In this document: piece after piece, positions 42,617 through 53,382 of the stretch
Position numbering within the stretch: position 1 is the stretch's first letter
How the letters are laid out: each line of letters begins with the position of its first letter
NCBI GenBank assembly: GCA_003252535.1
Contig: QKDN01000016.1
Coordinates: 1 to 59,237 of the forward strand
Reading direction: 5' to 3'
DNA: 59,237 nt
Origin: Campylobacterota bacterium
GTDB lineage: Bacteria; Campylobacterota; Campylobacteria; Campylobacterales; Sulfurovaceae
Notes under the pieces: generated by a model
The model's input: only the letters and a program-made list of their open reading frames with translations
What the model was told of the DNA's origin: nothing
Databases searched by the model: none
Program-made: the position numbers and the translations under genes

Positions 42617-42701
42617 GCCACAGTGATGGAACTGGTAGACTTGGTAGACTCAAAATCTTCTGCCTTTTGGCGTGTCGGTTCGAATCCGACCTGTGGTACC
42701 A
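42617..42701 (+). tRNA. tRNA-Leu (anticodon CAA)
   Basis: The 85-nt tRNA has acceptor stem GCCACAG/CTGTGGT, discriminator A and encoded CCA at 42699-42701. The loop CTCAAAA gives anticodon CAA (reads UUG). It has the long variable arm of class II tRNAs (CTGCCTTTTGGCGT), and the T arm contains GTTCGAATC. Confidence 0.9.
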
Positions 42702-42711
42702 CTCTTATGTT

Positions 42712-42786
42712 GCGGGCGTAGCTCAGGGGTAGAGCATAACCTTGCCAAGGTTAGGGTCGAGGGTTCGAATCCCTTCGCCCGCTCCA
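42712..42786 (+). tRNA. tRNA-Gly (anticodon GCC)
   Basis: The 75-nt tRNA has acceptor GCGGGCG/CGCCCGC, a D arm with GCTCAGGGGTAGAGC, anticodon stem AACCT/AGGTT around TTGCCAA (anticodon GCC, reads GGC and GGU), T loop GTTCGAATC and encoded CCA. It starts 10 bp after tRNA-Leu, so the two are co-transcribed. A pyrimidine-rich T-tract follows. Confidence 0.95.
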
Positions 42787-42894: not shown

Positions 42895-44637
42895 ATGGAT
42901 TTCAAAATAGGTTTTATCAACAAAGTTTTCTGGTTCATCGTATTTACATGGACGCTCCTGGTGATCGGTATCATCGGCAACCTCATTGTGGAAAATTATG
43001 CGTTCGCAGCGCAGTCTGCATACTTTGATGCCAGGATGAGTACGAAAAAAGATATCATTTTCCGCCAATGGAACGCCTCACGGGGCGGGGTCTATGTACC
43101 GGAGAACAATCTCACCCAACCCAATCCCTACCTCGGGCATATGCCCTACAGGGATATCAGGCATCCGGACGGTACCGGACTTACCATGGTCAATCCCGCT
43201 TATATGATACGTCAGATGAGCAGACAGTATGAAGAGGTGTTCGGTATCAAGGAGAAGATCACGAGCCTCAATCTGCTCAACCCAGTCAATGCACCGGATC
43301 AGTGGGAACGTGAAGCCCTGATAGACCTTGAGAACAACAAAGAACCTTCATACGGCGTGAGAACCATCGATGGTAAAGAGTACTACAGGTATCTCGAACC
43401 GCTCTATGTGGAACAGGCATGTCTGAAATGCCATGGGTTCCAGGGGTACAAAGAGGGTGAACTGCGCGGAGGTATCTCTATCTCCATCCCGATGAACGAA
43501 TACTATGCCTATGCATGGAAGAGGACGATGATCAATATCTTCTATGGAGTTGTCCTGTGGCTGTTCGGTATCCTGATGATATATCTCGCATACAAAAAAG
43601 CAAGGGATGTACTGCTGGATAAGATCAGGGACTATGAACAGAACATCTATTCACTCGTGACCATGATCGAAAAACGCGACCGTTTTACTGCGGGGCATAC
43701 CCAGAGGGTAGCCAAATATGCCACGATGATAGCAAGGGAACAGGGGTATTCACAGGAGGCGATATCAGAACTCTATACAGCCTGTATCCTCCATGATATC
43801 GGCAAGATATCGACCCCTGACAGCATCCTGCTCAAACCCGGTCTCCTGAGCGAGGCGGAGCGCAAGATTATCGAACAGCATGTCATCATGGGGTATGAGA
43901 TGCTCAAAGATATCGATATCTACAGGAATGTCGCCGAGATCATCCGCCACCACCACGAACGCTATGACGGCAAAGGCTACCCGCAGCATCTCAAAGGCGA
44001 TGAGATACCCAAGCTCTCCCAGATTCTTGCCATTGCTGATACCTTCGATGCGATGACGACAGACCGTATATACAAAAAACACCTCAGTGTCGAAGCGGCC
44101 CTGGATCTTTTCAAAGGGATGGGAGACAACGAGTTCGACAAATACCTTGTCCAGGATGCCATCGAAGCGCTCAAGGATGTCAGGCTCGAGCATATCATGG
44201 CGCAGACACCCCAGAACGATACGGAAAAGGAGCGGTTCTCCTACTTCTACAAGGATCAGATCACATTCGCATACAATCTGGACTATCTGATCTATATCCT
44301 GGACCGCAACTTCCAGAACGGATTCCGGTACAACCATGCATGGATCATCTACCTGAGGCATTTCAACAAATTCAACAAAACACACGGCTGGCTCAGCGGG
44401 GACAGGCTGCTCAAAGAATTTTCCAAGAGTATTATCGGGATGGAAGGAAAATTCGAGCTGTTCAGAATATTCGGGGATATATTCATCATTTTGAGCACAG
44501 AGAAAATAGAAGAGCGACTTCTCCATGAGAAGATAACGGATTTCCTCGCCGAAAAAGGTGTGGGATATGAGATGAAAGAGGTTGATCTTCTGAAAGATGA
44601 GATCAAAGGGTTCAAGAAGTTCGAGGGCTATATCTGA
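42895..44637 (+). CDS. Haem-site (DUF3365-like) membrane sensor with HD-GYP phosphodiesterase and degenerate GGDEF
   Basis: This 580-residue protein has a membrane helix (about 10-33), a periplasmic DUF3365/Tll0287-like sensor (35-215) with a c-type haem motif CLKCHG (Cys176, Cys179, His180), a second helix (about 219-236), and an HD-GYP domain (250-420) with His300-Asp301 and HHHERYDGKGYP (352-363), which hydrolyses c-di-GMP. The last 150 residues look like a decayed GGDEF domain: HFNKFNKTHGWLSGDRLL matches the substrate-binding part, but the active site reads RIFGDIF. All HD-GYP metal ligands seem present. First gene of a three-gene operon; the stop overlaps the next start. Confidence 0.85.
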   Translation: MDFKIGFINKVFWFIVFTWTLLVIGIIGNLIVENYAFAAQSAYFDARMSTKKDIIFRQWNASRGGVYVPENNLTQPNPYLGHMPYRDIRHPDGTGLTMVNPAYMIRQMSRQYEEVFGIKEKITSLNLLNPVNAPDQWEREALIDLENNKEPSYGVRTIDGKEYYRYLEPLYVEQACLKCHGFQGYKEGELRGGISISIPMNEYYAYAWKRTMINIFYGVVLWLFGILMIYLAYKKARDVLLDKIRDYEQNIYSLVTMIEKRDRFTAGHTQRVAKYATMIAREQGYSQEAISELYTACILHDIGKISTPDSILLKPGLLSEAERKIIEQHVIMGYEMLKDIDIYRNVAEIIRHHHERYDGKGYPQHLKGDEIPKLSQILAIADTFDAMTTDRIYKKHLSVEAALDLFKGMGDNEFDKYLVQDAIEALKDVRLEHIMAQTPQNDTEKERFSYFYKDQITFAYNLDYLIYILDRNFQNGFRYNHAWIIYLRHFNKFNKTHGWLSGDRLLKEFSKSIIGMEGKFELFRIFGDIFIILSTEKIEERLLHEKITDFLAEKGVGYEMKEVDLLKDEIKGFKKFEGYI

Positions 44638-45947
44638 TGGCTGAGAGAGAACAGGAGGTTTTCGTCCTTTTTCATGTGGAGGAGCTCTCGATCCTTTATG
44701 TCGAGGACAATGAGCAGATCCGGGAAGGGTACTACCGTACGCTCACTCGCCTCTCCCAGAAGCTTTTTCTTGCTTCCGACGGCAAAGAGGGGCTGGAGAT
44801 ATACATAAAAGAACGCCCCGATATCGTCATCACCGATATCCGAATGCCTGTGATGGACGGACTCGAGATGGCGCGGGAGATCAAAAAGTACAATCCCCAG
44901 GTGCCGATCATCTTCACGACAGCCCATACCGAAAGCGACTATCTGCTCGAAGCGATCGATCTGCAGGTGGACGGGTATCTCGTCAAACCGGTACGCAAAA
45001 GCCAGCTCGTGACCCTGGTACAAAAGATCGCCAAGGCCCTGGCGATCGAAAAAGAGCACAGGGAACAACAGGAGATCCTGCAAAATATCGTCGATCTGAG
45101 CGACAGTCTGACCGTGATCACCAACATGACCACCATATCTTTCGCCAACCAGGCTTTGCTCCGGACGCTGGAGATAGGGAACATCGGAGAGTTCAACCGG
45201 AAGTACGAGACGTTCATAGATATATTTTCCGATGAGCCCTCCTATATCCGCCGCAAGGATATAGCTGAGGCGCTTTACAAAGGGATCAATTTCAAAGAAT
45301 ACCTCGATCGGCTTGAGGAGTCCGAGAGGATCGTCGGGATCAGGCATAACGACGGGAAATGTTATTTTTATTATATCTCGGTCTCTTCGGTAAGCTCGAA
45401 CAGTTTCCTGATCAACCTTACCGATATCACCGGCATAGAGGAGAAACGCGAAGAGACAAGGAAAAAAGCCTATCTCGATGAGCTTACAGGGGTATACAAC
45501 CGCTACAAGCTGCTCGATATCTTCCACATGGAGTCGACACGTATCGACCGCGAGAGGGGCGCCTTGGCCCTTGCCATGTTCGATATCGATCTTTTCAAAA
45601 GTTTCAACGACAGGTACGGGCATCTCGTCGGTGATGAGGTGCTGGTGATGATCGCCCAGTATATCGAGGAGCACGTCAGGGGGAGCGATCTCTTCGTGAG
45701 GTGGGGCGGAGAGGAGTTCATCCTTCTCTTTGTCGATACGCACTATGAGGATGCGCTTGAGAAGTGCGAAGAGATGCGCAAGGCCATCAGCCGTCTTTCC
45801 CATCCCCGGGCGGGTGCGGTGACGATGAGCTTCGGCGTGAGCCGCTACAGGTACGGCGAAACACTCGAAATGCTGGTATCCCGTGCAGACGATGCACTCT
45901 ACAGGGCCAAACAGAACGGAAGGAACCGGGTGGAGGGTGAGTTATAG
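44637..45947 (+). CDS. Response regulator with diguanylate cyclase output (REC-PAS-like-GGDEF)
   Basis: ATG 44637 overlaps the stop of the HD-GYP gene. 436 residues: a short lead, a receiver domain (about 14-130, YVEDNE and phosphoacceptor Asp67 in VITDIRMPVMDG), a PAS-like middle (145-265) and a GGDEF domain (about 275-435) with the active site WGGEEF (357-361) and the inhibitory RxxD site (Arg348-Asp351) five residues before it. It should make c-di-GMP when phosphorylated, with product feedback. The neighbouring kinase is the natural phosphate donor; this pairing is inferred from gene order. Confidence 0.9.
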   Translation: MAEREQEVFVLFHVEELSILYVEDNEQIREGYYRTLTRLSQKLFLASDGKEGLEIYIKERPDIVITDIRMPVMDGLEMAREIKKYNPQVPIIFTTAHTESDYLLEAIDLQVDGYLVKPVRKSQLVTLVQKIAKALAIEKEHREQQEILQNIVDLSDSLTVITNMTTISFANQALLRTLEIGNIGEFNRKYETFIDIFSDEPSYIRRKDIAEALYKGINFKEYLDRLEESERIVGIRHNDGKCYFYYISVSSVSSNSFLINLTDITGIEEKREETRKKAYLDELTGVYNRYKLLDIFHMESTRIDRERGALALAMFDIDLFKSFNDRYGHLVGDEVLVMIAQYIEEHVRGSDLFVRWGGEEFILLFVDTHYEDALEKCEEMRKAISRLSHPRAGAVTMSFGVSRYRYGETLEMLVSRADDALYRAKQNGRNRVEGEL

Positions 45948-48164
45948 ATGAGAAGGTATGAAGATCGCACGTTGCTGGTATTCTACCTTGCGGCATTCCT
46001 GCTCATATCTTCACTCTTCTGCTATTTTCACAACAGCAATCTCGACGATCAGATCAACAAAGAGCTCGAAAGAAGCCTTGAAAGACTACAGCTCAACTAC
46101 GATATGACACAGATGTACAGACAGCAGGATGTCGCTTCGGTCAAAAAGGAGTTTGACAGCTTCCAGATCATACCGGGGATCATGGATGCCGCATACGGGG
46201 CAGATATAGCGAAGCAGGCGGAACTGAGACAACAGCTCTATGAAGCGCTGCTACCGGTCTACGAATCGCTCACGATGCGGGGGTATCTGCAGGTGCAGTT
46301 TCTCTTCCCGGACAATATCTCGTTCCTGCGTGTCCACAAACCCGACCGGTACGGCGATGACCTGAGCAATACGCGGTATACATTCCGATACACCAACATG
46401 ACCCATCTGCCGATATCCGGTTTCGAGCAGGGGAGGACGGAACATGGTTTCAGGAATGTTTTCCCTATCTTTACGAAAGAGGGGAAGTATGTAGGTGCCT
46501 ATGAGCTCTCGTTTTCTTCCGAATCCCTGCAGCAGGGGCTTATCAAGGTCAACAAGATACACTCCCATTTCCTGGTCCACAAATCGGTCTTCGAGGCGAA
46601 ACAGTGGGAGAGGATGGATGTCGAGCTGAACTACCTGCCGAGTATCGAGAACAACGATTACTACTATACGACTTTCTTTGTCGACCACAAGCGTCGCGCC
46701 TATGTAGAAAAGCATATTATCGGTGAGCACAAGGCGCTGATCGGGGAGAATATGCTCCATTCGAAAAAGTTCGCAGTCTATACCAGGGTGAAAGAGAAAG
46801 TCGTGGTGATAGCCTTCATCCCGATACTTGATGCCAAAGGGAAAACGGCGGCGTACCTTGTCTCCTATGCCGAGAGTCCGGTCATTTTGCATCTGCTGAA
46901 AGATTATATTACGATCTTGTGGACGAGTATCCTGACACTGGGTGTGTTCATGGTCTTTCTCTTCAGGCTGTCGGTCTACAAAAGGTCACTGGAGCGGCAG
47001 ACCAAGGAGCAGAATGAGCTTCTGAGTCTTTTCGACAAAGGGGATACGACGATCTTCAAATGGCGGCTTGATCCCAGAATGAGCGTTTCGTATGTCTCCT
47101 CGAACGTCAGGATGCTCACAGGATATACCAGGGAGGAGTTCGAGACGAAGCAGATAGACTTCTTCTCCATCGTCCACGAGGAGGAGGTGGAGCATCTCAG
47201 GGGACTTCTTGAGCAGATCAGCAAGGACCATGTCAATGTATTCAAGCAGGTATCGTACAGGATCGTGACCCGGGACGGGAAACACAAATGGCTTCTGAGC
47301 ACCTCGCAGGTGATCGACGACCAAAAAGGCAGACCGACACATCTTCTCGGATATGCGACCGATATCACCCAGATCAAGGACCAGGAGCTTTCTCTCAAGG
47401 AGTCCCGCTCTGCCCTCGAGGAGCTTACGCAGAACCTCCAGAAACGTATCGAAGAGGAGCTTTTCAAAGGAAGGGAAAAGGACCGGCTGCTCCAGGAACA
47501 GAGTAAGCTGGCATCGATGGGGGAGATGGTCGGTGCGATCGCCCACCAGTGGCGACAGCCGCTCAATGCACTGAGCATCAATATCCAGAATCTCGAAGAT
47601 GACTTCTATGACGGCCTGATCGACAAGAAGTTCGTCGGAGAGTTTATCGACAAACAGATATCGATCATCGACTTTATGAGCCAGACGATAGATGATTTCA
47701 GGAACTTTTTCAAGGTCAACAAACAAAAGATCCGCTTTAGTGTCAGAGAGGCGATCGAAACGACCGTCTCGATGCAGAAGGAACAGCTGGCAAACCACAA
47801 TATCCAGCTGACGATCTCCGGTGAGGATTTCAGTATCTTCAGTCTCAAAAGCGAGCTGCAGCAGGTGATCCTCAACCTGATCTCAAACGCAAAAGATGCC
47901 ATCGGCGAGAAAAAGATACGCAACGGACATATCGACATCAGGCTCGGAGACAAAAGTATCATTGTCAGCGACAACGGCGGCGGGATTGACGAAAAGGTCG
48001 CAGGGAGGATATTCGAGCCCTATTTCACGACCAAAGAAGAGGGGAAAGGGGTCGGTATAGGGCTTTATATGTCCAGGATGATCGTAGAGCAGAACATCGG
48101 CGGCATACTTGAGTTCAGCAACGGTGACGAAGGGGCGGTCTTTACGATCAGGTTCACCGTTTGA
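45948..48164 (+). CDS. Membrane sensor histidine kinase (PAS, HisKA-type HQWRQP box, HATPase)
   Basis: ATG 45948 follows the stop of the cyclase gene directly. 738 residues: helix one (about 10-27), a periplasmic sensor domain (30-310) with YLQVQFLFPDNISFLRVHKPDRYGDD, a pattern of cache-like sensors, helix two (about 316-338), a PAS domain (350-475, FFSIVHEEE and GYATDITQIKD), a coiled coil, and the kinase core with MGEMVGAIAHQWRQPLN (His533), N box NLISNAKDAI, and G boxes DNGGG and GVGIGLYMS. All kinase motifs are intact. It probably phosphorylates the adjacent REC-GGDEF protein. Confidence 0.88.
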   Translation: MRRYEDRTLLVFYLAAFLLISSLFCYFHNSNLDDQINKELERSLERLQLNYDMTQMYRQQDVASVKKEFDSFQIIPGIMDAAYGADIAKQAELRQQLYEALLPVYESLTMRGYLQVQFLFPDNISFLRVHKPDRYGDDLSNTRYTFRYTNMTHLPISGFEQGRTEHGFRNVFPIFTKEGKYVGAYELSFSSESLQQGLIKVNKIHSHFLVHKSVFEAKQWERMDVELNYLPSIENNDYYYTTFFVDHKRRAYVEKHIIGEHKALIGENMLHSKKFAVYTRVKEKVVVIAFIPILDAKGKTAAYLVSYAESPVILHLLKDYITILWTSILTLGVFMVFLFRLSVYKRSLERQTKEQNELLSLFDKGDTTIFKWRLDPRMSVSYVSSNVRMLTGYTREEFETKQIDFFSIVHEEEVEHLRGLLEQISKDHVNVFKQVSYRIVTRDGKHKWLLSTSQVIDDQKGRPTHLLGYATDITQIKDQELSLKESRSALEELTQNLQKRIEEELFKGREKDRLLQEQSKLASMGEMVGAIAHQWRQPLNALSINIQNLEDDFYDGLIDKKFVGEFIDKQISIIDFMSQTIDDFRNFFKVNKQKIRFSVREAIETTVSMQKEQLANHNIQLTISGEDFSIFSLKSELQQVILNLISNAKDAIGEKKIRNGHIDIRLGDKSIIVSDNGGGIDEKVAGRIFEPYFTTKEEGKGVGIGLYMSRMIVEQNIGGILEFSNGDEGAVFTIRFTV

Positions 48165-48185: not shown

Positions 48186-48356
48186 TCATTTCTTGTCTAT
48201 CTTGTCCAGCAGTTGTGTCAGCGTCGTGATCTTGTTGGCGATAAGCAGCGCATCGACAAGGTCTATCTTGTCGCAGTGGTAATCTTCCAGTCTTTTCTGC
48301 AGGGTTGAAAGTTCAGCCCTGATCTCATCGACCTTGCAGGGAACATGCCTGTCCAT
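48186..48356 (-). CDS. Small helical protein, 56 residues, unknown function
   Basis: The ATG at 48354-48356 is 8 bp after AGGAG; a longer open frame upstream lacks a ribosome site. The product, MDRHVPCKVDEIRAELSTL onward, is mostly helical with leucine heptads (LSTLQKRLEDY, TLTQLLDKI) and two cysteines; it could dimerise. No family recognised. A Fur-like box lies about 90 bp upstream. It is convergent with the kinase gene. Confidence 0.55.
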   Translation of the reverse strand: MDRHVPCKVDEIRAELSTLQKRLEDYHCDKIDLVDALLIANKITTLTQLLDKIDKK

Positions 48357-48440
48357 CCCATATCTCCTTTTATATATCTGTGTAACGGTGTCTGTACGGA
48401 AGTACGCATTGAAAAGCATGATCTGAAATAATTATTATTT

Positions 48441-48552: not shown

Positions 48553-49803
48553 TTAGAGAGAGCCCTTCATGGTCTGGCGTTTGTCGAAACTGTAGACATC
48601 GTCGAAGAAGTTCAGCTTGCCGCTGCCATCGACATAGGCAGTGAGGTATGCCGTCTGGACATTGATGTATGTCTTGAGTGTGACATAGCAGGTCTTTTTC
48701 GATTTTGCCTTTTTGTTGACAGCGTCGAAAGGGATCGAAGTGTATTTGTTCGAGACCAGGTTGAGAAGCTTTTGCGGCTGCGAGAGTCTGATACAGCCGT
48801 GGCTGTAAGCTCTGAAGCTTTTTGCGAAGAGCTTCTTGGCCTGGGTATCATGCATATAGACCGAGAACTTGTTGGGGAACATGAACTTGACCGTACCGAG
48901 GGCATTTCTGCTCGAAGAGCGTTCGATGATCTTATACGGGATACCTTTCCCTTTGTTCCCTTTGCCGATGTACTGTTTCCAGTCGACGCTTTTGGGATCG
49001 ACCGGCGTCGAGTCGGGGTTGTAGTCCCTGCGGACGATCATGTTGTTTCTCGAGAGGTAGCTCGGGTCTCTGGCGATGATCGGGATCAGCTCATCCCTGG
49101 CGATATTGTCAGGGACATTCCATGTGGGGTTGAGGACGATATATTTCATCTGTGAGCAGAATATCGGCGTCTGCCAGCTTTGCATACCGACCACTACCGG
49201 GAATTCCATGGTCTGTTTCGTACCCTCGAAAAGTCTGAACTTGAATTCGGGGACATTGACGAATACATAGGTGTCCCAGTGATTCAGTCTCATGAGCTTG
49301 GTTCTTTCGATATTGAGCTTGAGCTTGTTGATCTTGGCTTTGTCGCCTGAACCTTTCATTTGATGGTAATGGCTGAGAAGTTTGGCGAATTGCGGGTGGG
49401 TCGGGATATACGGTTTGAAGATATCTTCGATCGATTTTCCCGATTTGAGCTCCGCCTTGACCGCTTCGTCACTGACCTTCTGGATATCTACATCATAGAA
49501 GCTTTTCGGATTCGACCCGTATTTTGCCTTGAAAGCAGCGACATTGATACAGCTGTTGGCGAGGTTCTTGGTGTAGCCCATCATCAGCTGTGTCAGCACT
49601 TCATCCTTCGGGTCTTTGAGGTATGCATCATACATAGGTTCGAGTCCGCAGATCGAGGCGTATTTGTCTTCTTTGAGAATGTTTTGAAATTCCACTCTCT
49701 GGCTTTCGCTCCAGTCTCCTCCGAGCATCTGCGGAGTCCCCTGACACCCGGCGAGTATCAGGAGTGCCAGCGAAGCGAATAAGAGTCGCATCTTCATCTT
49801 CAT
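48553..49803 (-). CDS. L,D-transpeptidase lipoprotein (YkuD family)
   Basis: This 416-residue protein has a lipoprotein signal (MKMKMRLLFASLALLILAGC, acylated Cys20). An N-terminal helical part (30-150) precedes the YkuD catalytic domain (about 165-360), with WQTPIFCSQMKYIVLNPTWNVP, YMHDTQAKKLFAKSFRAYSHGCIRL containing the catalytic His-Gly-Cys, and the preceding His in the YMHDT motif. These enzymes form 3-3 cross-links in peptidoglycan or attach proteins to it, and in Campylobacterota they affect cell shape. It ends with a beta-rich tail (VQTAYLTAYVDGSGKLNFF). Monocistronic on the minus strand. Confidence 0.87.
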   Translation of the reverse strand: MKMKMRLLFASLALLILAGCQGTPQMLGGDWSESQRVEFQNILKEDKYASICGLEPMYDAYLKDPKDEVLTQLMMGYTKNLANSCINVAAFKAKYGSNPKSFYDVDIQKVSDEAVKAELKSGKSIEDIFKPYIPTHPQFAKLLSHYHQMKGSGDKAKINKLKLNIERTKLMRLNHWDTYVFVNVPEFKFRLFEGTKQTMEFPVVVGMQSWQTPIFCSQMKYIVLNPTWNVPDNIARDELIPIIARDPSYLSRNNMIVRRDYNPDSTPVDPKSVDWKQYIGKGNKGKGIPYKIIERSSSRNALGTVKFMFPNKFSVYMHDTQAKKLFAKSFRAYSHGCIRLSQPQKLLNLVSNKYTSIPFDAVNKKAKSKKTCYVTLKTYINVQTAYLTAYVDGSGKLNFFDDVYSFDKRQTMKGSL

Positions 49804-49935: not shown

Positions 49936-52900
49936 TCAGCTCCCTGTCAGTTCAAGCGCCATTTTTTTTGCCCTTTTGTAATCGTTTTTACCGCTCCCGA
50001 GCTTTGGCAGTTCCTCGACATTATATATACGACCCGGCTGCATGATAGGGGGGAGATCACTCTCTTTGATCACCGCAGTGATCTTCTCGGTCGTGATGTC
50101 TCCCCTGTAGAGCAGGACGACCTGCTCGCCCTTCCTGGCATCCTCGACAGCTGTGGTGACAAATTCCACCCCTTCACCCAGTATCGCGGCGAGCTTCTCC
50201 TCGACGCTGCCCAGGCTGATCATCTCCCCGCCGATCTTGGCGAAGCGGCTGTAGCGGTCGACGATATAGACGAAACCATCCTCGTCGAGATGCCCCTTGT
50301 CCCCGGTCCTGTAGTATCTGATACCTTCGATCTCCACGATCGCCTCGTCGGTTTGCTCTTTGTCGTCCAGATACCCCTGCATCACCTGCGAGCCGCCGAC
50401 GATGATGAGGCCGTCCTCTCCACGTGGCAGCGGCGCGAGGGTTTCAGGATCGACGATCCTGATGATCGTCCCGGGTATCCCTTGTCCCACGCTCCCCTCT
50501 TTGTTCCCGATAATCGGCTGCATGGTGTCGAGATCGAGACGGTTTGGCATATTGACCGAGATCACCGGGGAGGTCTCCGTAGCGCCGTACCCTTCGTAGA
50601 TATCGAGCCCGAACTTCTCCCTGAACGCTTTTCTCACCTCCGGTTTGAGCTTCTCTGCACCCGCTACGACCATACGGATGCTTTCGAACATCAGCGGGTG
50701 AAGCTTGCGGTTGCGCTCATAAAGCCTGAAGAAGGTCGAGGTACCGAAAAGGATCGTCGCCCGCTCCCGCGCTGCGAGCCTGCCGATAGCGACCGCATCG
50801 GTCGGATCGGGAGCCGAAGCGATCGTCACCCCTTCGCACAGCGGCAGGAGCGTCGTGACCGTGAGTCCGAACGAGTGGAAGATCGGCAGTGAGTTGAGGA
50901 TCACGTCGTCGTTCTGGAAATTGAGCAGTGAGGATACCTGTCTGATATTCGCCATCAGGTTCTTGTGGGTAAGCTCGATCCCTTTGGGTGTCCCTTCGCT
51001 GCCGCTGCTGAAGAGTATCGTCGCTGTATCGTCCAGTGTCACCTTCTCGAAGTAGAGCTTCTCGAGGAGCCACGCCGGCAGCAGGAGGGACTGGAGCAGG
51101 GCTTTGATCCTCTGCGCCTTTGTGATCTCTCCCGAGAGGGTTTCAAGGACAATGGTTCTCCCCTCAAGTGTATCCCTGAGATCGAAGCCTTTGGCAGCGA
51201 GTTTGTCAAGGAATTTCTGCGAGGTGATGACACGCTGTATACCCGCTTTTTCGATAGCTCCCAGCAGGGCTTCTTTCGAGAGGGTATAGTTGAGGTTGAC
51301 AGGGCGGCGGCCAAGGATCAGCAGGGCAAGGTTGACAATTGAGCCTGCCGCCGAGGAGGGGAGGAGTACCCCTGCATTCTTCTCACTGTCGAGGATGGTT
51401 CTGAACTTTTTGATGAAGATCAGGACACCGGTGATGAGCTTGAGGTTATTGAGATTTGCCCCCGTTGTATCGACGATGGCTTTTCTGAAAAGCTGCGACC
51501 GTGCTCTGCGTATCCATGAGTACTGGAGTGGCCGCTGCGCGTCTATCTCCTCTTCCCAGACGCTTCTCGAGAGCTCGACGACCGCCTCCTTGACCTCTTC
51601 GCTGCTGCTCGATCCCTTCATTGGTTCGCCGAACGCCACGACAAGCTCTCTCTTGGAGCCGTTGTCGGTGATCGATTGGTAGTAGTCGTTGGCACGGGAG
51701 AATGTTGAACCCCACAGGCCGTGGAGGTAGAACGGCACGATAGGGTGGTCAAGCTCCCGCATCGCCATCTCGAACCCTTTTTTGAACTCGTTGAGCTGGC
51801 CGTTGTAGCTGATACGTCCCTCGGGGAAGAGGGCGACCACCTCGCCGTTGTTCAGTCTTTCGCGTATCTTCGTGATCGAATCTTTGCCCGATGCGCTTGA
51901 GATCGGGATGATCCTGAAGTACTGGAGGAACCACCGCAGGTACCATTTGTTGTAGATACTTTTTTCCATGACGAACTTGATCGCCCGGGGCGAAGCGATC
52001 TGGAGGATCAGCCAGTCGATCCAGCTGATGTGGTTGCCCAGCAGCAGCACGCCGCCACTCTGGGGGAGGTTGGAGAGCCCTTTGATACGGAGCTTGTAGC
52101 GGGTGTGGAGTATAGGGATGAGGAGGATGCGTACGAAAAGGTTGGGCAACTCCCTCGCGGCATAGAGCGAGCCGATCAGAGTGATGGCAGCCGCGAAGCC
52201 GAATATCGTCTCCGTATCGAACCCGACCTCGACCAGAACGATAGAGAGTACCAGGAAGAGGACCATGATGATGTTCTGGATGAAGTTGTTGCCAGCAAGG
52301 ATCGTCCCCAGCTGTGCAGGGGCGGCGAAGAATTGTATCGTGGCATTGAGCGGGACGATGAAAAGACCGCCGAAGAACCCGAAAAGGAGGCTGGCGACAT
52401 ACATCGTCTCTGTCTGCGTCGTATAGCCAAACAGCAGCAGTGAGCCGAACAGTCCTGTCGCACCGAGCGGGATGATGCCATGTTCGATATGCTCCCTCGA
52501 AGCACGACCGGCCAGCAGCGAGCCGACCATGACACCGATGGCGCTCACCGCGAGGATGCTCTGGATCACAATGGCGTTGTCGTCACCCATGATCGCTTTG
52601 TAGTGGGCAGGGAAGGCGGCAACCACGATCTGCCCGATCCCCCAGAATATCCCCAGGGCAAAGATGCTCAGCCAGATATCACGGTTCGATCGGAGCAGCA
52701 TGACATTCTTCCGCAGGTAGGAGAGACGGAGGTAGTCACGGATCGAGAAGTGTTCGGCACTGCTGCCCGGTTCGAAGACCGGGAGCTTGTATGCGAGGTA
52801 GCTCTCGAGGGAGGTCAGGGCGATCAGGAGCCACCCGATGAGGGTAAGGTTGGGGAGTATCTCGCCCGCGCTCTTCGCCCCGCCATAGATCGACTCGAAG

Positions 52901-53382
52901 ATCACCGAGAAGAGGATGGAGCTCGCAAGGATGGCGACGATGGTGATCGCCTGCACCAGACCGTTGGCGCTTCCCAGATGCTCGACGCCGACGAGCTCCT
53001 TGATGAGACCGTACTTGGCGGGAGAGTAGATGGCGCTCTGCACCGCCAGCAGGAATGTCATCCCGAAGGCGATCCAGAACCACCCCAGAGCGTAGCTGAC
53101 GAGGATCATCACCGCCAGGGCTATACTGCTCAGAGCGGCATACCGGACGACCCTGGTCTTGGCATACTTATCCGAGAGGTAGCCCGAGGGTGAGAAGAGG
53201 AGGATGAATGGGAGGAGGATCAGCGCGTTGATCACCGCCGAGAGGATCACGAGGGTCTCGCCCGAATAGCTCTTGAGGAGGACATTCTGGATTGTGATCT
53301 TGTGGGCGATATCGACCGTGGCGTTGATCAGCAGGATTATGATATAGGGGAGGAATCCCCTGATGGCAAAAAGCGTTCTCAC
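49936..53382 (-). CDS. Three-domain Aas-type protein: MFS transporter, lysophospholipid acyltransferase and acyl-ACP synthetase
   Basis: The GTG start overlaps the merR stop (GTGA) behind AAAGGAG; 1148 residues. Residues 1-410 form a 12-helix MFS module like LplT (GYLSDKYAKTRVVRYAALS), which flips lysophospholipids inward. Residues about 420-620 are a PlsC-type acyltransferase (GNHISWIDWLIL, the HX4D box; VALFPEGRIS). Residues about 640-1140 are an AMP-binding acyl ligase (ATILFSSGSEGTPKGIELTHKN, GYGATETSPVIS, YYRTGDKGHLDEDGFV). No acyl-carrier domain is seen. In E. coli LplT and Aas are separate neighbours; here all three are fused, giving import, activation and re-acylation in one chain. 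Confidence 0.88.
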   Translation of the reverse strand: MRTLFAIRGFLPYIIILLINATVDIAHKITIQNVLLKSYSGETLVILSAVINALILLPFILLFSPSGYLSDKYAKTRVVRYAALSSIALAVMILVSYALGWFWIAFGMTFLLAVQSAIYSPAKYGLIKELVGVEHLGSANGLVQAITIVAILASSILFSVIFESIYGGAKSAGEILPNLTLIGWLLIALTSLESYLAYKLPVFEPGSSAEHFSIRDYLRLSYLRKNVMLLRSNRDIWLSIFALGIFWGIGQIVVAAFPAHYKAIMGDDNAIVIQSILAVSAIGVMVGSLLAGRASREHIEHGIIPLGATGLFGSLLLFGYTTQTETMYVASLLFGFFGGLFIVPLNATIQFFAAPAQLGTILAGNNFIQNIIMVLFLVLSIVLVEVGFDTETIFGFAAAITLIGSLYAARELPNLFVRILLIPILHTRYKLRIKGLSNLPQSGGVLLLGNHISWIDWLILQIASPRAIKFVMEKSIYNKWYLRWFLQYFRIIPISSASGKDSITKIRERLNNGEVVALFPEGRISYNGQLNEFKKGFEMAMRELDHPIVPFYLHGLWGSTFSRANDYYQSITDNGSKRELVVAFGEPMKGSSSSEEVKEAVVELSRSVWEEEIDAQRPLQYSWIRRARSQLFRKAIVDTTGANLNNLKLITGVLIFIKKFRTILDSEKNAGVLLPSSAAGSIVNLALLILGRRPVNLNYTLSKEALLGAIEKAGIQRVITSQKFLDKLAAKGFDLRDTLEGRTIVLETLSGEITKAQRIKALLQSLLLPAWLLEKLYFEKVTLDDTATILFSSGSEGTPKGIELTHKNLMANIRQVSSLLNFQNDDVILNSLPIFHSFGLTVTTLLPLCEGVTIASAPDPTDAVAIGRLAARERATILFGTSTFFRLYERNRKLHPLMFESIRMVVAGAEKLKPEVRKAFREKFGLDIYEGYGATETSPVISVNMPNRLDLDTMQPIIGNKEGSVGQGIPGTIIRIVDPETLAPLPRGEDGLIIVGGSQVMQGYLDDKEQTDEAIVEIEGIRYYRTGDKGHLDEDGFVYIVDRYSRFAKIGGEMISLGSVEEKLAAILGEGVEFVTTAVEDARKGEQVVLLYRGDITTEKITAVIKESDLPPIMQPGRIYNVEELPKLGSGKNDYKRAKKMALELTGS

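Follow-up and report, generated by a model that had tools for sequence, protein, structure and literature searches.

The Escherichia coli proteins DosC and DosP (DgcO/PdeO) are encoded in one operon, a cyclase together with a haem-sensing phosphodiesterase of cyclic di-guanosine monophosphate (c-di-GMP) (PMC8846402). Both of these enzymes sense O2 by a cytoplasmic haem, and the phosphodiesterase is of the EAL type. We analysed a three-gene locus with a comparable combination of parts, located at 42895-48164 of a 59,237-base stretch of DNA (hereafter the window, meaning the whole of this stretch) from a Campylobacterota bacterium of the family Sulfurovaceae. Its first gene codes for a putative haem-sensing phosphodiesterase (protein 1), the second for a cyclase with a receiver domain (protein 2) and the third for a histidine kinase (protein 3). 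The locus differs from DosC/DosP in that its haem c would be periplasmic, its phosphodiesterase is of the HD-GYP type and its cyclase would be driven by a separate kinase. We lean, if only slightly, towards the view that it is a two-input module for the control of c-di-GMP.

The sensor of protein 1 has described relatives in the DUF3365/Tll0287-like family, for which a 2026 preprint introduced the new name sCache_heme (PMC12889525). Protein 1 resembles the sCache_heme sensors Tll0287, GSU0582, GSU0935 and the P. azotoformans protein of that preprint in Pfam family, in the place of the CxxCH motif and in predicted fold, and like the signalling-type members it is fused to a signalling module and has no axial Cys. 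Its output is an HD-GYP domain followed by a degenerate GGDEF domain, and HD-GYP is unmentioned in the main text of the preprint. The combination of haem c with HD-GYP is not new in itself, since Geobacter has a haem-c HAMP/GAF/HD-GYP protein, GSU2622 (PMC8396549). An NO (nitric oxide) input to c-di-GMP breakdown, as proposed here, is also found in the NosR-family HD-GYP response regulators (NF053512) and in H-NOX pathways; however, the HD-GYP domain of protein 1 scores 140 bits to NF053512, far under the family cut-off of 400, and protein 1 has no receiver domain and carries its sensor within itself.

In the mechanism that we propose, the first input would be received by the periplasmic haem-c Cache domain of protein 1, which would most likely bind NO or else shift its ligation with redox. 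The signal would pass through the second membrane helix and a continuous helix (residues 201-261) to the HD-GYP phosphodiesterase, which would degrade c-di-GMP, and the GGDEF domain at the tail, which presumably forms no c-di-GMP from GTP, probably modulates this enzyme through guanine nucleotide binding or dimerisation. As a second input, the dCache_3-PAS kinase would answer a periplasmic ligand and phosphorylate Asp67 of protein 2, whose GGEEF domain would then make c-di-GMP under feedback from its I-site. By co-expression, two periplasmic cues would set one c-di-GMP level.

The three open reading frames are intact, consecutive and head to tail on the plus strand. Gene 1 (42895..44637) encodes a membrane-anchored protein of 580 amino acids with sCache_heme (PF11845), HD-GYP and degenerate GGDEF domains; gene 2 (44637..45947; 436 amino acids) a receiver (REC) domain with Asp67, a PAS-like linker and a GGDEF cyclase; and gene 3 (45948..48164; 738 amino acids) a dCache_3 periplasmic sensor, a PAS_3 domain and a histidine kinase with His533. 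Their G+C content is 0.63-0.70 at third codon positions and 0.30-0.31 at second positions, a pattern typical of real genes. The original prediction, made from the DNA letters and their translations, spoke of an overlapping operon. This describes the first junction, where stop and start share the base 44637 (TGATG), and does not describe the second, where the genes merely abut, the stop of gene 2 ending at 45947 and gene 3 starting at 45948. Co-translation of genes 1 and 2 through the one-base overlap is likely, and from the spacing of the genes we infer a single transcript for all three; a promoter and terminator scan of the locus gave signals not clearly above those of shuffled sequences.

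The predicted haem sensor of protein 1

The sensor domain with its two flanking membrane helices takes up residues 1-236 (42895..43602, plus strand). Its Tll0287-like Pfam match covers residues 46-199 with 84.2 bits against a cut-off of 24.1; the Pfam matches for all three proteins exceed their curated cut-offs, with the exception of HisKA in the kinase. We modelled residues 1-240 with AlphaFold2 on the basis of 31 relatives, and the mean pLDDT (predicted local distance difference test) was 92.5. In this model the CLKCH motif for haem c attachment (Cys176, Cys179 and His180; residues 176-180, 43420..43434, plus strand) lies between long helices at 2-63 and 201-239. The closest match of the model was Tll0287 (5b82; VIA Z 15.5, 2.9 Å over 134 residues, with the next chains at 12.5 or below). 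It also matched GSU0935 (3b42) with a Foldseek E of 0.00098, and the profile of the 31 relatives matched Tll0287 in the PDB with an E of 0.00025. Motif position, Pfam match and predicted fold therefore agree in pointing to a periplasmic c-type haem site at Cys176/Cys179, as had been predicted.

A scan of genome contigs with protein 1 alone gave no relatives, and an alignment query was then used. Conservation of CxxCH among the relatives recovered in this way is partly by construction, and we therefore counted only those that a whole-protein search blind to the motif had found (L044-L058 and L060-L062), all 18 of which keep it. The genome encodes a cytochrome c assembly machinery (a 1039-amino-acid frame with PF01578).

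Residues 1-240 of protein 1 contain no Cys other than 176 and 179, and hence no axial Cys. This bears on the kind of ligand, which the original prediction had left as a redox or gas signal. In the preprint, the tested signalling-type sCache_heme protein, which is without an axial Cys, bound NO and released it slowly (koff 6.25e-4 per s) and formed no stable O2 complex, and the stand-alone protein that keeps the axial Cys looks redox-like (PMC12889525). Since protein 1 is without the axial Cys of the redox-type members, NO would be a better guess for its ligand than O2 or CO (carbon monoxide).

Several points weigh against the proposed reading of the sensor. CO binding and redox switching are likewise known from the haem Cache domains of Geobacter (PMC8396549), and NO is consequently not the sole candidate ligand. 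His63, present in 84-92% of the haem Cache relatives, is Arg in protein 1 (43081-43083 of the window). In an assembly that is 99.95% complete we did not find a cytochrome cd1 nitrite reductase (NirS), and the single COX1-family gene, beside a CcoO-like gene, looks like a cbb3 oxidase and not like NorB. The organism's own denitrification is therefore not an obvious source of NO, which, if it is the ligand, would come mainly from outside.

Perhaps, then, the haem Cache domain reports periplasmic redox instead of a gas, through a change of the sixth haem ligand that drives the phosphodiesterase. Two members of the family, GSU0582 and GSU0935, change spin state with redox, their midpoint potentials being -156 and -251 mV (PMC8396549), and the host genome has the oxidase and yielded no NirS, all of which would suit such a role. 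However, the axial Cys that stand-alone members of the redox type carry is missing from protein 1, and the tested signalling-type member behaves as an NO binder (PMC12889525). We regard the redox reading as rather doubtful but as a serious rival to NO binding, which we favour.

The source genome has five sCache_heme domains: that of protein 1, two fused to GGDEF (contigs C11 and C54, loci L001 and L005), one fused to a kinase (C49, L003) and one that stands alone (C19, L004). The stand-alone member (187 amino acids) has an extra Cys61, and in the four signalling members the sensor region holds only the Cys of CxxCH. One type of haem sensor thus occurs on GGDEF and HD-GYP proteins of the same genome, and the making as well as the breaking of c-di-GMP may be under its control.

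HD-GYP and degenerate GGDEF domains of protein 1

The HD-GYP domain occupies about residues 241-430 (43615..44184, plus strand), with an HD_5 Pfam match of 143.3 bits over residues 255-416 and the motifs HDIGK at 300 and HHERYDGKGYP at 353. Residues E259, H268, H300, D301, H329, H353, H354 and D382 are invariant in all 19 aligned sequences, and the fold matches 4mcw, 4r8z and the c-di-GMP-bound 9rbz in Foldseek. With metal ligands and the HHExxDGxGYP motif present, the active site appears intact and the domain can be read as a c-di-GMP phosphodiesterase, in line with the original prediction.

The domain that follows (about residues 436-575; 44200..44619, plus strand) has a weak GGDEF Pfam match (residues 453-545, 26.7 bits against a cut-off of 23.8) and a GGDEF fold by its Foldseek match to 4urs. 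In place of the usual motif it has RIFGDIF at 524-530, and neither GG(D/E)EF nor the metal-binding DxD of active cyclases is present. Asn494, Arg524, Gly527, Asp528 and Phe530 are unchanged in the 19 sequences, so that GDxF is kept. For the other positions we used the numbering and residue roles of PleD. The equivalent of the metal-binding Asp327 (DxD) is never Asp (0/19), and in place of the first Gly of GGDEF every sequence has Tyr, Phe, His or Glu (19/19). The equivalent of Asn335 is Asn494 in every sequence, and that of Asp344 is Asp503 (15 Asp, 4 Asn).

As some residues are kept throughout and those of a cyclase are always missing, the alignment indicates that the tail domain is a conserved, repurposed non-cyclase. 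The domain had been called decayed; degenerate it is, but the pattern is fixed in 19 of 19 sequences and does not suggest decay. By analogy with FimX, where an inactive GGDEF domain also stands beside a phosphodiesterase domain and activation by GTP has been reported (PMC8846402), its role is probably regulatory. FimX differs in its EAL output and in its degenerate motif, GDSIF. The precedent invites a more specific reading of the tail domain, compatible with the two-input module, in which bound GTP that is not turned over activates the adjacent phosphodiesterase. The equivalents of PleD Asn335 and Asp344 are kept, with the DxD metal Asp and the first Gly of GGDEF never present, as would be expected of such a sensor, but one metal ligand is gone and the domain may merely dimerise; we hold the nucleotide-sensor reading tentatively, at somewhat less than even chances. 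The same cassette of HD-GYP and degenerate GGDEF is also found behind a receiver domain (L232, L247, L248, L249 and L251), and its occurrence behind other inputs suggests a portable output unit.

The predicted two-component pair of proteins 2 and 3

Protein 2 matches Response_reg with 98.7 bits and GGDEF with 141.1 bits. Its receiver is intact (E23, D24, D67, T94 and K117), VITDIRMP at 64 giving Asp67. The cyclase domain has GGEEF at 357-361 and an RGSD I-site at 348-351, the I-site Asp standing five residues before GGEEF; with both motifs intact, it can be expected to make c-di-GMP and to respond to it. Between the two domains is a linker of about 128 residues that is PAS-like. Cyclases of the PleD/CbrR type similarly combine REC and GGDEF with an I-site, and protein 2 scores 187 bits to the PleD model, under the family cut-off of 474, but it has one receiver and a PAS-like linker instead of two receivers.

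Protein 3 matches dCache_3 (32.4 bits), PAS_3 (60.2 bits) and HATPase_c (64.0 bits). Its HisKA match, at 23.2 bits, is below the cut-off of 26.9; inspection by eye shows intact H-, N- and G-boxes, and AIAHQWRQPL at 530 gives His533, from which we judge the kinase to be intact. The original prediction had given an RxxD cyclase and an intact kinase, and the residues that it named (Cys176/Cys179 of protein 1, Asp67 and His533) are all at the positions it gave. Two features had escaped it, the PAS_3 domain in protein 3 and the PAS-like linker in protein 2.

The closest relatives of genes 2 and 3, in genomes G266 (L192) and G475 (L234), likewise form pairs of this order, with members that overlap by four bases; the kinase core is 62-64% and the REC domain 54-56% identical to theirs. 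The same regulator-kinase order with a different sensor is found in G354, G431 and G184 (L198-L200). In none of these genomes does the HD-GYP gene adjoin the related pair. The recurrence of the adjacent pair in G266 and G475, together with the intact His and Asp, argues for the kinase/cyclase pairing that had been predicted, and it is well supported from these comparisons that proteins 2 and 3 would form a cognate two-component pair, conserved independently of gene 1. As a separate observation, genome G159 (L232, L233, L244 and L245) has at least five proteins of the same dCache_3 subfamily, mostly kinases and one of them adjoining a REC-HD-GYP gene, a marked lineage-specific expansion.

Gene neighbourhoods and control of c-di-GMP

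Among 34 relatives of protein 1, drawn from Campylobacterota and Gammaproteobacteria, not one showed the three-gene order of the window, and most have unrelated neighbours; the close-species comparison covered 10 genomes of the genus, in one of which (G068) the gene of protein 1 is cut off by the contig end. In G266 both parts are present, the HD-GYP gene and the kinase/cyclase pair being about 153 kb apart. The idea of a conserved, self-contained three-gene switch in the original prediction is not supported by these results, and the order may be a recent local arrangement.

These neighbourhoods raise the possibility that the genes are together by chance, a stand-alone sCache_heme-HD-GYP gene upstream of an independent two-component cyclase operon, with no functional coupling. 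The close junctions would then be a matter of tight gene packing, and each system would answer its own cue. The kinase/cyclase pairs without a protein 1 gene beside them in G266 and G475 fit this explanation as well, and with about 40 GGDEF domains in the source genome a shared output alone means little. However, the one-base TGATG overlap makes co-translation likely, and in seven of the 34 relatives, spread over at least three lineages, protein 1 has a GGDEF-only cyclase gene as its immediate neighbour on the same strand, where a rough estimate (about 40 genes in about 2,900, the gene number being taken from genome size) would give less than one by chance. Six of these seven neighbours, moreover, are fused dCache_3-GGDEF proteins (L060, L061, L054, L077, L079 and L081), driven by the type of sensor that the kinase of the window carries. 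The fused gene is the upstream partner in two genomes of the family to which the window belongs; in four genomes of Sulfurimonas type it is the downstream one and overlaps by 23 bases. Mapped on the tree, the presence of a cyclase neighbour requires a minimum of three changes on starred branches, and six on the best tree, counted with L051 still included. The neighbour in L051 was rejected as a cyclase, being a GGDEF-EAL protein, and was dropped from the tally of seven. Taken with the evidence on both sides, we consider a chance neighbourhood unlikely and retain the two-input module.

The fused proteins might have been the kinase sensor of the window joined to its cyclase, but simple fusion or fission is unsupported by the trees. 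In the cyclase-domain tree the window's domain falls in a moderately supported set of seven (94/85) that holds fused and two-component cyclases together, whereas in the dCache tree its domain groups with the G266 and G475 kinases (SH-aLRT 94) and not with the fused dCache_3-GGDEF proteins. Given this disagreement, an exchange of modules seems likelier than plain fusion or splitting. On a Sulfurimonas contig (L083:6515-11837), a REC-HD-GYP-degenerate GGDEF protein, an sCache_heme-kinase, a lone REC and a dCache_3-kinase are encoded side by side, a further wiring of the same modules that also links an HD-GYP protein with a dCache_3 sensor.

Upstream of gene 1 are tRNA-Leu(caa) and tRNA-Gly(gcc) (42617..42786, plus strand), which end 108 bases before it; a check for an island origin at this tRNA pair showed no break in G+C beyond the tRNA/intergenic dip. 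Downstream, on the minus strand and convergent with the kinase gene, a reading frame of 77 amino acids (57 from an inner ATG) at 48186-48419 lies in the gap that separates the operon from the next gene of that strand (48553-49803). Further on, at 49936-53382 of the minus strand, a frame of 1148 amino acids appears by eye to be a fusion of an MFS-like (major facilitator superfamily) transporter, an acyltransferase and an AMP ligase.

Every part of the locus belongs to a known family, and the whole may plausibly be counted as a new variation on c-di-GMP control of a known kind. In the open-licence literature searched, which is not proof of novelty, we found no description of the sCache_heme-HD-GYP-degenerate GGDEF family or of its recurring association with a dCache_3-driven cyclase, and little on c-di-GMP inputs in sulfur-cycle Campylobacterota. 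We would suggest, as a tentative generalization to which we give a little less than even chances, that an undescribed one-protein haem sensor of the periplasm, acting on c-di-GMP breakdown, is common to Campylobacterota and some Gammaproteobacteria. Its repeated partner would be a dCache_3-driven cyclase, in the form of a single fused protein or of a kinase/regulator pair, and NO or redox would thereby be balanced with another cue from the periplasm on one c-di-GMP pool. If this is true, the locus would offer a genetically compact test of how the making and breaking of c-di-GMP are balanced from two periplasmic signals. Similar modules that are fused in one relative and linked through phosphotransfer in another would allow one- and two-component designs to be compared in nature, and the newly recognised haem-c Cache domains would gain HD-GYP as a clear output in Campylobacterota of the sulfur cycle.

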